35,218 nt of DNA from Leptotrichia trevisanii DSM 22070 (GTDB taxonomy: Bacteria; Fusobacteriota; Fusobacteriia; Fusobacteriales; Leptotrichiaceae), in contig NZ_KI519445.1 of the NCBI RefSeq assembly GCF_000482505.1, forward strand, positions 62,096 to 97,313, written 5' to 3'. The stretch's first letter is position 1; each line of letters starts with the position of its first letter. Both the position numbers and the translations under genes were made by a program. Below, in pieces: positions 28,866 to 33,863 of the stretch. A model generated the notes under the pieces. It saw only the letters and a list, made by a program, of their open reading frames with translations. It was not told the DNA's origin and made no database searches.

Positions 28866-31046
28866 CTATTTATTAACATCATATTTTAATAGCCGCAATG
28901 AATTTCCAACTACTAAAATTGTTATTGAATTATGTAAAATCGAGCTGTATATTGCAGGTAAAAGTCCTGTCGCACCTAACACAAGGGCAAAACTGTTTAT
29001 TCCAATCGCCATTGCAAAATTTTGTTTTATTATTTTTACGGTGTTCTTGGCTAAACCTACTACACCCGGTATTAATAACGGATCATCTGAAGTTATTGTA
29101 ACATCGGCAGCTTCCATTGCAATATCTGTTCGTGAACTTCCCAAGGCTATTCCTACATTTGCGTAGGAAAGGGCAGGAGCATCATTTATTCCGTCACCTA
29201 TCATAATAACTTTTGAACCGATTGAACGGAATTTCAAAATATCTTTAGCCTTGTCCTCAGGAAGTAGTTCAGACTCGTATCTGTCCATCGACATTCTTGA
29301 CGCAATGGTTTCAGCCTGTTGTCTTAAATCTCCTGTCAACAGTACAATATCGTCTATTCCCTGATTTCTTAGCCGATTAATTGCCTTTTTTATATTTTCC
29401 CTAGGAGGATCTGAAACGCCGATAACACCTATTAAATCACTGTTTTTAGCCACATAAATTACAATTTCCCCACGGTTTTGCATTCCTTTGACTATATCAC
29501 CTGCCATTTTAAGTGAAATATCATTTTCTTCCATATATTTCTGGCTTCCCACACGAATAATGTCCTTATTTACAAAAGTTTCTATTCCTCTTGCCACTTT
29601 GACAACGGATTCCTTATGTTTTGGAATTTTTAATCCTCTATTTTTAATTTCATTCAAAATTGCACTTGCCAATGGATGTGATGAAGTTTCTTCGGCTGCG
29701 GCAGCCAGTGCAAGCATCCTGTTATCTTTCATATTTTTTCCAAAAGTCTTTAGTGTTTGGATTTTAGGCTTTCCTTCGGTTATTGTACCTGTTTTATCAA
29801 ATATCACTGTGTCAGATTTTGAAAGTTCTTCCAGATAGTTGCTTCCTTTAATCAGAATACCATTTTTAGCCGCTGTATTAATTGAAGCTGAAAATGCTGT
29901 TGCCGTTGATAGTCTTATTCCACATGAATAGTCGATTACAAGCATACTTAGTGCTTTTTGTAGGTTTCTGGTGGAAACATAGACGATTCCGGCAAGTAAG
30001 AAGTTTAGTGGGATCAGTTGTGCGGAAAATGTATCGGCATAAGATTGAATGTCAGCCTTGTTAAAGGAGGCATCTTCCACTAATTTTATAATTCTTGAAG
30101 CTGTTCTGTCATCACCGACTTTTTCAGCTTTTACAGTAATATTTCCACTTTTTAAAAGTGTTCCTGCAAAAACTTCCTCACCGACTTTTTTAGTAACAGG
30201 CATATATTCCCCTGTGATTGGTGACTGATCAATTATTGCCTCACCTTTTTCAATTGTTCCGTCCACACTTATTTTTTCCCCAGTCTGAACAAGTATCAAA
30301 TCTCCCCTGTTAATTTCTTCAATTGGGACTTTTTTGGCTGTTTCCGCATCATCAGACTGTTTCCAGACATAGTTTTCTCCAACGCTTAACATATCTTTAA
30401 TTACACCACGTGTCTTTTTTATTGTATAAACAGTAAGCAGTTCTGCAAATTTTTCTAAGATCATAATTGTCAAGGCTGTTCGTTCACTTCCTAAAATGAT
30501 ACTGCTGACGATAGCTGTAGAACTTAGTGTATCTGCATTAGGACGCTTATTTTGAATCAGGGAATAAATTCCATTTTTTAAAACAGGCAGGGCTAAAGAA
30601 ATTGTTGACAAAGTCTTGTAGTTAAACAATCGTCTGATTCCTGTCAATTTTGTCTTTGGATTTGGCAGTAGAAGTAACAGCACTGCGGCACCAATATTTT
30701 TTATAATTTCCTGTGGGGATTCTTCCTGTAGACGTCTTTCAATAACATATTTATTTGATGATTGTTTTTTTTCATTTTTATAAATATCCACCAGATATGT
30801 ATTTAACGTATTTTGAATTAAAGATACCAAGTTTTCACCAGTCAGTGCCAAATTATCAAAATAAATAAGAACAGTACCTGTAATAATTGAAATTTCAACA
30901 CTTTGGATATAATGAACTTGCATCAGCTGGTTTGTTATTTCTTCCTTATGAATCCCAAGATATTTTAAAGCCCTTGATTTTATTCTGATTCTTCCACGAA
31001 TTTCGTGTAAAATCTCACAATCCAGTAAATAATTTTTATTTAACAT
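28866..31046 (-). CDS. P1B-type metal-transporting P-type ATPase
   Basis: A 726-residue heavy-metal-type P-type ATPase. It has an N-terminal HMA-like domain (residues ~8-70, EIRGRIRIKSR ... ISIITGTVLIYFD) without CxxC. Then come membrane helices, the actuator motif SPITGEYMP near 274-282, and DYSCGIRLS near 371-379, where the CPC/SPC metal motif reads S-C-G. The phosphorylation site DKTGT is near 415-419, SSHPLAS near 453-459 (the HP motif of metal pumps), GDGINDAP near 617-624, and a final helix with LHNSITILVVGNSLRLL. All catalytic motifs look intact. Metal cannot be assigned: the S-C-G motif and C-terminal H-N argue against a standard Cu+ pump. The start follows AAAGGGA by five bases. Confidence 0.9.
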   Translation of the reverse strand: MLNKNYLLDCEILHEIRGRIRIKSRALKYLGIHKEEITNQLMQVHYIQSVEISIITGTVLIYFDNLALTGENLVSLIQNTLNTYLVDIYKNEKKQSSNKYVIERRLQEESPQEIIKNIGAAVLLLLLPNPKTKLTGIRRLFNYKTLSTISLALPVLKNGIYSLIQNKRPNADTLSSTAIVSSIILGSERTALTIMILEKFAELLTVYTIKKTRGVIKDMLSVGENYVWKQSDDAETAKKVPIEEINRGDLILVQTGEKISVDGTIEKGEAIIDQSPITGEYMPVTKKVGEEVFAGTLLKSGNITVKAEKVGDDRTASRIIKLVEDASFNKADIQSYADTFSAQLIPLNFLLAGIVYVSTRNLQKALSMLVIDYSCGIRLSTATAFSASINTAAKNGILIKGSNYLEELSKSDTVIFDKTGTITEGKPKIQTLKTFGKNMKDNRMLALAAAAEETSSHPLASAILNEIKNRGLKIPKHKESVVKVARGIETFVNKDIIRVGSQKYMEENDISLKMAGDIVKGMQNRGEIVIYVAKNSDLIGVIGVSDPPRENIKKAINRLRNQGIDDIVLLTGDLRQQAETIASRMSMDRYESELLPEDKAKDILKFRSIGSKVIMIGDGINDAPALSYANVGIALGSSRTDIAMEAADVTITSDDPLLIPGVVGLAKNTVKIIKQNFAMAIGINSFALVLGATGLLPAIYSSILHNSITILVVGNSLRLLKYDVNK

Positions 31047-31081
31047 AAAAATCCCTTTCTTTTCTTTCATTTTTACAATAA

Positions 31082-31453
31082 TTAAAGTTCTTTAATTATG
31101 TTATAAAAAGTATCCAAATTATCTTCTATTTCCTTCAAGGATTTATTTTCATATAATTCGGAATGATTAATCATCGTTTTCCAGACTTTATTCAGCCAGT
31201 CCAGTATTTGTTTTTCTGAAATCAGTTTTATGTCATAATAAAGTAGAATTTTATTTGTTATATACGAAAACTCAACACTTTTTATACCTTTTTTTGATAA
31301 AATAAGTTCTGTAACCCGATAATCATATTTTTTTAATTCTTCTGGAATATCTGATAAATTTGGGACAGAAAGCCTTAATCTGCCGGGAATACTGTGTACA
31401 ACCTTTATCTGATTAAACATCAGATATGTAGCCTTAAATAAATTTTCCAACAT
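31082..31453 (-). CDS. Small HMA-like protein of the metal-ATPase cluster (123 aa)
   Basis: The core (IKVVHSIPGRLRLSVPNL ... KGIKSVEFSYITNKILLYYD, residues ~14-75) has the G-R-L-R-L first strand and the x-I-x-x-V-x-x-S/N-x-x-T-x-x-I-L-I-x-Y-D ending seen in the other three HMA-like domains here, again without a CxxC. A charged helical tail follows. No membrane span. The start is the ATG overlapping the previous stop (TAATG), which couples translation. A longer in-frame start 42 bases upstream would lie inside the previous gene and is unlikely. Confidence 0.7.
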   Translation of the reverse strand: MLENLFKATYLMFNQIKVVHSIPGRLRLSVPNLSDIPEELKKYDYRVTELILSKKGIKSVEFSYITNKILLYYDIKLISEKQILDWLNKVWKTMINHSELYENKSLKEIEDNLDTFYNIIKEL

Positions 31454-31938
31454 TATTTTCTTTTCCCTTCTGATAAAAAAATAAAAGTCCACCATAGTAA
31501 AGTGGCACCCGCAGGCAATTCTGGAAATTTTCTTAATTTTTTAATTCCATAAAAAGCAAAAATTCCTGCAACTAATGTTTTTAAATCCAGATAACCTTTA
31601 CTTTTATTGTAAATAGCCATATCCACCGCTTCAAATGTTTGTTTTAACAATACTTTTATTTTTCCAGGTTTATTTTTTAGGGCTTCTCCTTCCAGATGGA
31701 GTAATTTTAGAACGATTAAATATAAAAACGAACTTTCAATAATTTTTTCATCAAAATAAATTAGGATGCTTCCAGTAACGGAATTGACTCTCACTGAATC
31801 TATCCCTGATAGTTGTCGCATATTATTTAAAAATTCCTGTTCTAATTCCACATTTTCCCTTAATATATCTGTTTGAAGCCTCAAACGTCCATTCTGGTAA
31901 TGTTTTACCTGAATAACGCCATAAAAATTTTGCAGCAT
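31453..31938 (-). CDS. HMA-like protein with C-terminal membrane anchor, first gene of the metal-ATPase cluster (161 aa)
   Basis: The N-terminal HMA-like domain (VKHYQNGRLRLQTDIL ... DSVRVNSVTGSILIYFDE, residues ~10-68) lacks CxxC. A linker with basic and amphipathic stretches follows, then two hydrophobic segments near 119-132 (LKTLVAGIFAFYG) and 141-156 (LPAGATLLWWTFIFLS), ending G-K-R-K. It would be anchored in the inner membrane with the HMA-like domain in the cytosol. AAGGAG stands six bases before the ATG, and a consensus promoter lies 30 bp upstream, so this gene leads the operon. Its stop overlaps the next start by one base. Confidence 0.75.
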   Translation of the reverse strand: MLQNFYGVIQVKHYQNGRLRLQTDILRENVELEQEFLNNMRQLSGIDSVRVNSVTGSILIYFDEKIIESSFLYLIVLKLLHLEGEALKNKPGKIKVLLKQTFEAVDMAIYNKSKGYLDLKTLVAGIFAFYGIKKLRKFPELPAGATLLWWTFIFLSEGKRK

Positions 31939-32041: not shown

Positions 32042-32076
32042 ACAAAAAAATAAGGGCATTTTTGTACACCCTTATT
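32042..32076 (-). terminator. Rho-independent terminator of the DUF262/DUF1524 gene
   Basis: AATAAGGG (32049-32056) pairs perfectly with CCCTTATT (32069-32076). On the minus strand the stem is followed by a T run. It could also act weakly on the plus strand (TTTAT follows). Confidence 0.8.
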
Positions 32077-32094
32077 TTATGAAAAATGGAAATT

Positions 32095-33804
32095 TTAAAA
32101 CTCATATTCCCCGTTCCACGTAATGAACAGCTTAACAAGTTCTTCCGCCACTTTTCTATTTCTTGTATCAATATCTTCAAAAGTCCAGTCAGTCTTATCT
32201 GTTGGAATCAATTCCCTTACATATTTAATTTTAGATTTTCCATAATTTACTTTTTTCTTGTCAAAAAAGTTTTCCGAAGCCTTGATTGTCAGTTTCTTTT
32301 CAAAAGGGATCTTATTTCCAATGTAGTTTATATACTCCTTAACCTGCTTATTTTCCATGCTTTCTGAGAAACGGTTGCTCCATTTTTGTGGTAAAATGTA
32401 TTCAACTTCCCATTTTTCAGGCAAAAGTTCATCCTGATTATTGTAGACAACCATTTTTAAAATCATACGCACAAGATTTTTATTAGGTGTCTTTACTTTT
32501 TCCTGAAGTACAGAAATTGGGATATTTTTAAATGCAATTTTTGGCGAAATATTGTCAATTATATCCACATTTAATTTCAGAATATCAGATTTTACAGCTG
32601 AAACGCTCGGTGTTACAAGATAATTTGCAGTCAATTCCAAAAACAGCTTTCGTAAAAATTTCAAAAAATATGTTTCAAAGTTTTCTTTATCACCGTGAGC
32701 CAGATAGTACACAACAACAGGATATTTCCAAGATTCATTCGGATAAGCCGACAAAGTATCCAAAATTTTAATAATCTGTATATTTTCTGTCCAAGGTTTT
32801 TCATCAATTGACTCACGTCTGTTCATAACAACCCATAAATCCAGAATCTGATCCAAGTTTTTTAATAAATTTGATTTATAAAGCCGTGTAAATCCACCTT
32901 TTGAGTAAAAACGTCTAAGCCCAAGAGTAGTAGTCGCCATATCCTTTTCTGTGGCTCTTAAATAGAACATGTAATAATAAAACAGCTGTTTTACATTTTC
33001 CTTAGCATAAATTGCCCGTTCGCTCAGATTTTTCCATTGTTTAATAAATAATTTCTTGTATTCCTTTTTTATTCTGTTATACATTTTTGCCTTGAAAATA
33101 TCTGCTTCAGAAAGAGGCAGTCCCCTGTCATTCAATGTTGAAAATACACTTAAGGCATCGTCCTGCGAATCTGTCTTTATCGGGAAAACAACCGCCCTGT
33201 TTAAAGTGTAGTAAATAAACTCCAGCATTAATGTCGGACTTAATTCACAAAGCTTATCGAATAGTTTTTGAAATAAAATGTAGTTTTTGGAATAATTGTC
33301 AGTGGCTTTAGAATCAGCAACACCTGTTTCCAAGATATTCTGTAAAATTTTATTTCCTTCATTGTCTATAACTCTCGAATTAATCAGTACACTTGTATAG
33401 TCAACTTCTCCAGTAAGTTTTTCCTGTTTCCACAATGCCGGCTGAATCTGTCTTATGAAATTTTCCTGCTCCACAGTTTTTTCTTCATAAGAAGTTAATT
33501 TTGTATAAATTGCCCGTAAAAGCAGGAAGAGAGAAGTTATTCTCTGCTGCCCGTCGATAATTTCCTGTTCCCCCTCTTCATTTTCATAAGAAACAATACT
33601 TCCTAAGAAATATGTCCCTTCGGTACTATTATTTTTTTTAGTTTCACTTTCTGTAAATTCCAGTAAATCATAAAATAACGTCTTAGTTTCATTTTCAGTC
33701 CAAGAATATGGCCTTTGATATTCAGGTATTAAAAATGTCTGCTCTTTACCACTTTCGAGTAACTGCTTTATACTTTGCTTATTCACTTGTATTGTTGCAA
33801 CCAT
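32095..33804 (-). CDS. DUF262/DUF1524 protein (GmrSD-like), probable defence protein
   Basis: A 569-residue protein of the GmrSD/BrxU-like class. The N-terminal DUF262 domain (ParB/sulfiredoxin-like nucleotide-binding fold) shows IPEYQRPYSW (26-35), YFLGSIV (65-71) and the signature IIDGQQRITSL (82-92). The C-terminal DUF1524 His-Me-finger domain is at ~455-560 (YINYIGNKIPFEKKLTIKASENFFDKK, then a late W and R region). At the position of the usual E-H-I-L-P-Q motif the protein reads E-Y-I-L-P-Q (codon TAC rather than CAC), so the general-base histidine appears lost. Family members act as restriction of modified phage DNA. Expression signals are intact: AGGAGG four bases before ATG, a promoter and a terminator. 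Stands alone. Confidence 0.85.
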   Translation of the reverse strand: MVATIQVNKQSIKQLLESGKEQTFLIPEYQRPYSWTENETKTLFYDLLEFTESETKKNNSTEGTYFLGSIVSYENEEGEQEIIDGQQRITSLFLLLRAIYTKLTSYEEKTVEQENFIRQIQPALWKQEKLTGEVDYTSVLINSRVIDNEGNKILQNILETGVADSKATDNYSKNYILFQKLFDKLCELSPTLMLEFIYYTLNRAVVFPIKTDSQDDALSVFSTLNDRGLPLSEADIFKAKMYNRIKKEYKKLFIKQWKNLSERAIYAKENVKQLFYYYMFYLRATEKDMATTTLGLRRFYSKGGFTRLYKSNLLKNLDQILDLWVVMNRRESIDEKPWTENIQIIKILDTLSAYPNESWKYPVVVYYLAHGDKENFETYFLKFLRKLFLELTANYLVTPSVSAVKSDILKLNVDIIDNISPKIAFKNIPISVLQEKVKTPNKNLVRMILKMVVYNNQDELLPEKWEVEYILPQKWSNRFSESMENKQVKEYINYIGNKIPFEKKLTIKASENFFDKKKVNYGKSKIKYVRELIPTDKTDWTFEDIDTRNRKVAEELVKLFITWNGEYEF

Positions 33805-33833: not shown

Positions 33834-33863
33834 ATTATACACTATTTCTGGCTTATTTTTCAA
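33834..33863 (-). promoter_or_regulatory. Sigma-70-type promoter of the DUF262/DUF1524 gene
   Basis: On the minus strand TTGAAA (33863-33858) and TATAAT (33839-33834) are separated by 18 bases, ~30 bp before the start codon. Confidence 0.7.

Follow-up and report, generated by a model that had tools for sequence, protein, structure and literature searches.

Does a GmrSD-family protein still cut DNA when its nuclease motif reads E-Y-I in place of E-H-I, and if it does not, in what capacity has its gene been kept? The question is raised by an ORF of the window, by which we mean the whole stretch of 35,218 nucleotides analysed here (G000:C71:62096-97313, part of the 2.85 Mb genome G000, family Leptotrichiaceae). 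The original prediction had noticed EYILPQ at the site where EHIxPQ is expected, a one-base change of TAC against CAC, and this observation holds (Table 1). Both Pfam domains of the ORF score well above the family cut-offs (PF03235 with 122.7 bits against 33.2, PF07510 with 38 bits against 23), a search of the protein against NCBIfam gave no meaningful family, and in a PADLOC search the profiles of HEC-06 matched best (E 1.5e-42 over aa 5-558). By descent the protein belongs to the GmrSD family, with the DUF262 motifs at the N-terminus and a DUF1524 domain at the C-terminus, while two features of active GmrSD type IV enzymes are absent, namely the general-base His of the (E/D)H pair (Tyr469) and the third HNH residue, an Asn (Thr506). 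The published motif is given as (I/L/V)(E/D)H(I/L/V)xPQ, followed by L(G/A)NLxLLxxxN and NxxFxxKK (PMC4619093); in the alignment Glu468 of the HNH-type motif is kept and Asn506 is lost. The gene is probably transcribed alone in the window, because it has its own promoter-like site and a terminator-like hairpin lies ahead of the ATPase operon that follows; this hairpin (z -3.31; folding energy -14.1 kcal/mol over 65 nt) is not listed by a simple terminator scan. The claim that all parts other than the tyrosine are intact stands for DGQQR, and promoter-like and terminator-like elements are indeed present, but it does not stand for the rest of the nuclease domain, in which Asn506 is replaced by Thr or Ser and Asn511 by Glu.

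Table 1. Features of the GmrSD-family gene and its flanks, in window coordinates.
Feature	Position	Strand	Basis
GmrSD-family ORF, 569 aa: DUF262, helical linker and GmrSD_C (DUF1524)	32095..33804	-	Pfam matches, translation
Same ORF: catalytic His and metal-site Asn both lost	32095..33804	-	alignment to relatives
DUF262/GmrSD_N domain, aa 12-241, predicted NTPase/sensor	33082..33771	-	PF03235, E 2.7e-35
GmrSD_C/DUF1524 His-Me finger domain, aa 434-554	32143..32505	-	PF07510, E 1.9e-9; AlphaFold2 model
EYILPQ where EHIxPQ is expected, aa 468-473	32386..32403	-	reads GAATACATTTTACCACAA = E-Y-I-L-P-Q
Tyr469 codon TAC	32398..32400	-	one base off the His codon CAC
Thr506, aligned with SspE N676 (metal-binding Asn)	32287..32289	-	alignment
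Glu511, in the Asn column of the NxxFxxKK motif	32272..32274	-	alignment
Asn497 in the GN motif, kept; central N of H-N-N, with a structural role	32314..32316	-	alignment; role as reported in PMC4619093
DGQQR nucleotide-hydrolysis motif, aa 84-88, intact	33541..33555	-	translation, alignment
Tyr29-Gln30-Arg31 (PxYQR motif), intact; resembles the PxYQ sensing patch of SspE/DndI	33712..33720	-	residues matched by eye
Promoter-like site TTGAAA-18-TATAAT, 5' of the GmrSD-family gene	33834..33863	-	sigma-70-like, 11/12 consensus positions
Terminator-like hairpin with U tail, separating the GmrSD-family gene from the HMA_2/P-type ATPase genes downstream of it	32047..32078	-	

A protein search covered 33 genomes of the family, 13 of them from the genus of the window, and full-length orthologues were found in 10 of these 13 (the window's own counted), with 89-100% identity. 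Whether close homologues share the tyrosine could thus be answered directly: all ten read EYILPQ, with either TAC or TAT as the Tyr codon. The protein of a sister genus (L013 in genome G002, 53% identity) reads EQIYPS and carries Gln in the Tyr469 column, and L014 from the same family and L033 from the same order, both about 51% identical, read EHILP. For the wider subfamily one genome per species was scanned and the best 80 relatives (43-57% identical) were taken; five rows were dropped (L074, L099 and L105 with split frames, L116 at a contig end, L100 as a duplicate of L014) and L014 and L033 were added, which gives the 77 rows used here, with L128, which has a stop inside the matched stretch, counted by its longest frame. 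Residues at positions 469 and 506 were counted from the alignment columns. Position 469 is His in 77/77 of these relatives, Tyr in 10/10 proteins of the genus and Gln in L013. Among the dropped rows, a frame-by-frame reading shows both His and Asn in L074 and L105, and the same read-out for His and Asn gave no match in L099 and L116. The copies examined on plasmids and viral contigs (L171-L176) keep both residues in 6/6 cases. In the domain alignments Tyr sits in the His column and no His is displaced to a neighbouring site, so the catalytic His has not simply moved within the domain; in the His494 column, His is found in 68 of 93 alignment rows and Tyr in all ten genus proteins.

Three further observations concern other members of the family. 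Gene decay does happen elsewhere, as L074, L099 and L105, 3/80 of the intact-type relatives, are split by frameshifts or stops. The window genome encodes a second GmrSD-type protein of 763 aa (L002, G000:C2:16913-18676, minus strand) with a canonical LDHILPQ motif. A distant GmrSD-type protein of 688 aa in the same genus (L020/L149, G005:C1:416334-417950, minus strand) reads EYIMPEN, with E-Y-I replacing EHI, and its metal-site Asn also appears to be lost; it is possibly an independent case of the His-to-Tyr change.

The tyrosine is not the only change in the nuclease domain. Position 506, with which N676 of SspE aligns, is Asn in 77/77 relatives, Thr (2) or Ser (8) in the genus and Thr in L013; position 511 is Asn in 75/77 relatives, Glu in 10/10 genus proteins and Lys in L013. 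The loss of the site, that is of the residues for cutting, is well supported. Altogether the genus departs from the 77 relatives at 15 positions with at least 95% conservation among the latter, and at 14 of these the change is common to all ten proteins; seven of the 15 are located in DUF262 (205-233, mostly conservative substitutions), two in the linker and six in GmrSD_C. Given the seven changed positions in DUF262, the activity of the N-terminal domain may have shifted too.

These counts bear on the first alternative offered in the original prediction, a recently inactivated restriction enzyme, and equally on a plain sequencing error. A Tyr codon is a single base away from a His codon, as would suit a gene that is just becoming a pseudogene, but Tyr is found in 10/10 orthologues of separate genomes, encoded by TAC in some and TAT in others, all ten ORFs are full-length, the sister genus has Gln, the second active-site residue is lost in 11 proteins, and dN/dS is close to 0.05. 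A sequencing error and a recent mutation were both rejected, as the tyrosine is common to all ten orthologues, and we regard a gene in the course of decay as scarcely credible.

Mutants of related enzymes indicate what such losses may do to cutting. Endonuclease activity is reported as gone and DNA binding as kept in Eco94GmrSD H508A (PMC4437046), and for BrxU H475A the paper describes neither DNA digestion nor phage restriction, with NTP hydrolysis as in the wild type (PMC8565348). In TgvB, H571A and N602A each abolish protection according to PMC11411939, and the change of SspE N676 to Ala is reported to abolish nicking and phage resistance (PMC9646914). BrxU E528A is described as an enzyme that still digests DNA in vitro and restricts weakly in vivo (PMC8565348). 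E528 lies nine residues past N519 and corresponds by spacing to position 506, so the metal-binding Asn is not universal in GmrSD enzymes, BrxU having Glu there by this measure. Because BrxU E528A cut DNA in vitro, loss at position 506 alone may not be fatal to cutting. Set against this mutant, the results for Eco94GmrSD, BrxU and TgvB suggest by analogy that the His change would be the decisive one and that the second change would reinforce it.

Could the protein nevertheless cut, with Tyr469 as general base or with a ParB/Srx-like DUF262 domain acting alone? In PacI, an HNH enzyme, a tyrosine is placed as general base of the site in the position of His (PMC4081073), as is Tyr469 in the window protein, and the fixation of Tyr in 10/10 orthologues with both TAC and TAT in use looks like constraint; for the N-terminal domain, Machnicka et al. 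suggest a possible nuclease activity of GmrS (PMC4619093). However, PacI is described as keeping a metal-binding Asp and Asn (PMC4081073), whereas the aligned Asn is Thr or Ser in the window lineage, the sister lineage carries Gln and not Tyr, and in BrxU, Eco94GmrSD and TgvB removal of the HNH His is reported to abolish cleavage or defence despite an intact DUF262 domain. A PacI-like catalysis by Tyr was rejected, since Asn506 is lost too, and a protein that is still a nuclease by either route is distinctly unlikely.

The fold of the domain appears to have been kept. An AlphaFold2 model of the window protein from 51 sequences (mean pLDDT 88.4, pTM 0.73) retains the elements of the His-Me finger, with beta strands at 466-469 and 498-501 and a helix at 513-521. 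Its best PDB matches by Foldseek and VIA-align are SspE, DndI and BrxU, nearly over the full length. The architecture of PacI, by comparison, is otherwise unrelated to that of the window protein. SspE and DndI, phosphorothioate-sensing DUF262-DUF1524 proteins, are the best full-length structural matches (7drs/7drr with Z about 22; 9jfl with Z 19.7 and rmsd 5.9 over 510 residues). Their PxYQ sensing patch, given for DndI as P23/Y25/Q26 (PMC11662687), looks conserved in the window protein, whereas the metal-binding N676 of SspE is replaced by Thr506. The GmrSD type IV enzymes Eco94GmrSD, BrxU and TgvB have the same DUF262 domain with DGQQR, a helical linker and a C-terminal DUF1524 domain; lacking the HNH His and the aligned Asn, the window protein would not be expected to cleave modified DNA as they do. 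Intact relatives match the same profiles of HEC-06, a candidate defence system, and keep His and Asn, whereas the window lineage does not.

A tree was inferred from 436 columns outside the nuclease domain for 43 rows, after removal of the rows with the longest branches and of alternate intact rows. Five genus proteins and L013 form one clade in this tree with support 100/99.9, and the alternative grouping of L013 with L014 is rejected (p-AU 1.8e-5). A tree of 88 full-length rows agrees on the clade, with a long-branch warning for L013. Because the His-less proteins group together in the tree without the nuclease domain, the loss is taken as ancestral, and a single loss of the active site before the two genera parted would be the simplest account.

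The gene is under strong purifying selection: over the 45 pairs among the ten orthologues the whole gene has a median dN/dS of 0.052, compared with 0.047 for the neighbouring P-type ATPase and 0.125 for one HMA_2 gene. Two groups of intact relatives gave no lower values, with 0.064 in Streptococcus, where dS of the 3 pairs is close to saturation, and 0.122 over 3 pairs in Anaerococcus. Divided by part, the medians over the same 45 pairs are lowest in DUF262 (0.042), followed by the linker (0.046) and GmrSD_C (0.065), and by this estimate a GmrSD_C domain with no recognisable active site is conserved nearly as well as the remainder of the protein. These values also bear on whether the NTPase domain alone does a cellular job, with the C-terminal domain as a structural remnant. 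The YQR, DGQQR and LNxRG motifs of DUF262 are unchanged in the genus orthologues, (I/V)DGQQR and YQR being invariant in the alignment, as such a role would have it. Yet the constraint on GmrSD_C is near that on DUF262, and of the 30 GmrSD_C positions conserved in intact relatives 24 are kept in 10/10 genus proteins; because of the low dN/dS and these retained positions we take GmrSD_C to be still in use, and a function of DUF262 alone is very unlikely.

The gene is most likely vertically inherited. It is not essential, because it is absent from 3/13 genomes of the genus, and those three also have no DUF262 match at all. In a tree of the ATPase (G015 absent), G014, one of the genomes without the gene, adjoins the carrier G016, which suggests that the absence in G014 is a loss and not a late gain elsewhere.

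Directly downstream of the gene an operon of HMA_2, HMA_2 and P-type ATPase genes is found in 7/10 carriers, and a different set of genes in three (G011, G015 and G016). In the window this operon consists of a pair of HMA_2 genes that overlap each other (31082-31938, minus strand; products of 161 and 137 aa), followed by the P-type ATPase (28866-31070), which begins with an HMA_2 domain of its own; the ATPase is present in 13/13 genomes of the genus. In G012, a genome without the pseudo-nuclease gene, the P-type ATPase is split by stops (L145, 3056-5238), and in G011 one copy of tuf is split (C1:163086-164248). Because G007 combines both types of neighbourhood, with the ATPase operon downstream and upstream genes matching those of the group of three, one ancestral site explains the neighbourhoods of all carriers.

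A partner for the protein was sought in the carrier genomes. The original prediction had proposed a regulator of another nuclease, and a pseudo-nuclease might form a complex with another protein that is active, either a nuclease or one with DUF262, in the way that TgvA, made of DUF262 alone, works with TgvB. Two-gene GmrSD systems with one nuclease-less component are described (PMC11411939, PMC12373910), BrxU and DndI are reported to dimerise (PMC8565348, PMC11662687), a further GmrSD_C match exists in two carriers (G000 and G005), and 7/10 have another DUF262 match. Against this, 8/10 carrier genomes have no other GmrSD_C match and 3/10 (G006, G009 and G016) no other DUF262 match, so that a GmrSD partner encoded elsewhere was ruled out as a general explanation. 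Nor does an adjacent candidate recur: no neighbouring gene is common to all ten carriers, the ATPase operon being present in seven and lying behind the terminator-like hairpin in the window, and none of the ten has a second DUF262 match closer than 40 kb to the gene, in contrast to the adjacent second DUF262 gene of TgvAB. GmrSD homologues are reported to sit frequently in type I loci (PMC11411939); with three query proteins we detected HsdM/S/R-like genes at 13 of 80 loci of intact relatives (L051-L130) and at none of the loci of the window lineage (L131-L142). No one partner gene recurs beside most intact relatives either (76 loci, the commonest family in 11). The proposal of a regulator thus finds little support, and we consider a role as partner or regulator unlikely.

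Probably, then, the window protein is a member of the GmrSD family whose HNH site was lost in the ancestor of the window's genus and its sister genus and which has been maintained from then on as a functional pseudo-nuclease, an NTP-gated factor that binds or senses DNA and does not cut it. That it is a conserved pseudo-nuclease is well supported; its present function is proposed from sequence comparison, and the non-cleaving role named as second alternative in the original prediction finds support within the limits of what sequence can show. In such a protein the DUF262 domain would still bind and hydrolyse NTP and would sense DNA, possibly DNA with modifications; the DUF1524 domain, though dead, would still bind DNA, so that the whole would act as an NTP-gated binding or sensing factor that either holds or blocks foreign DNA or regulates the DNA of the cell itself. 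A precedent for the binding step is DndI, whose isolated C-terminal domain is reported to bind DNA better than the full protein, with ATP hydrolysis altering binding (PMC11662687). A simple role in defence seems less apt by analogy: an overexpressed, catalytically dead BrxU-type GmrSD (D474A/H475A) is described as giving no protection against T-even phages (PMC12373910), and we saw no experimental precedent for non-cutting defence. No naturally inactive protein of the GmrSD or DUF262 type came up in a literature search, whose coverage leaves out most subscription journals and so does not show absence from print. A bolder version, which we hold to be possible but doubtful, is that one bacterial lineage domesticated a phage-defence nuclease, turning it into a DNA-binding protein that is fixed in the chromosome and switched by NTP. 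In this natural 'dead GmrSD' a ParB-like DUF262 domain would gate a non-cutting clamp like the CTP switches of ParB/Noc type, or the protein would act as silencer or road-block of modified DNA; VIA-align comparison with ParB/Noc gave matches too weak to count in its favour (Z 3.6 or less).

Proteins with DUF262 and DUF1524 domains are usually read as restriction enzymes, and the window protein would be counted as a nuclease because PADLOC profiles match it over its full length. In the lineage described here the sensing/NTPase part of the family stands apart from the nuclease, under selection as strong as that on the neighbouring transporter gene, and through it the action of the sensing/NTPase part alone becomes testable. 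The window protein would be a natural binding-only probe for the DNA mark that its subfamily recognises.
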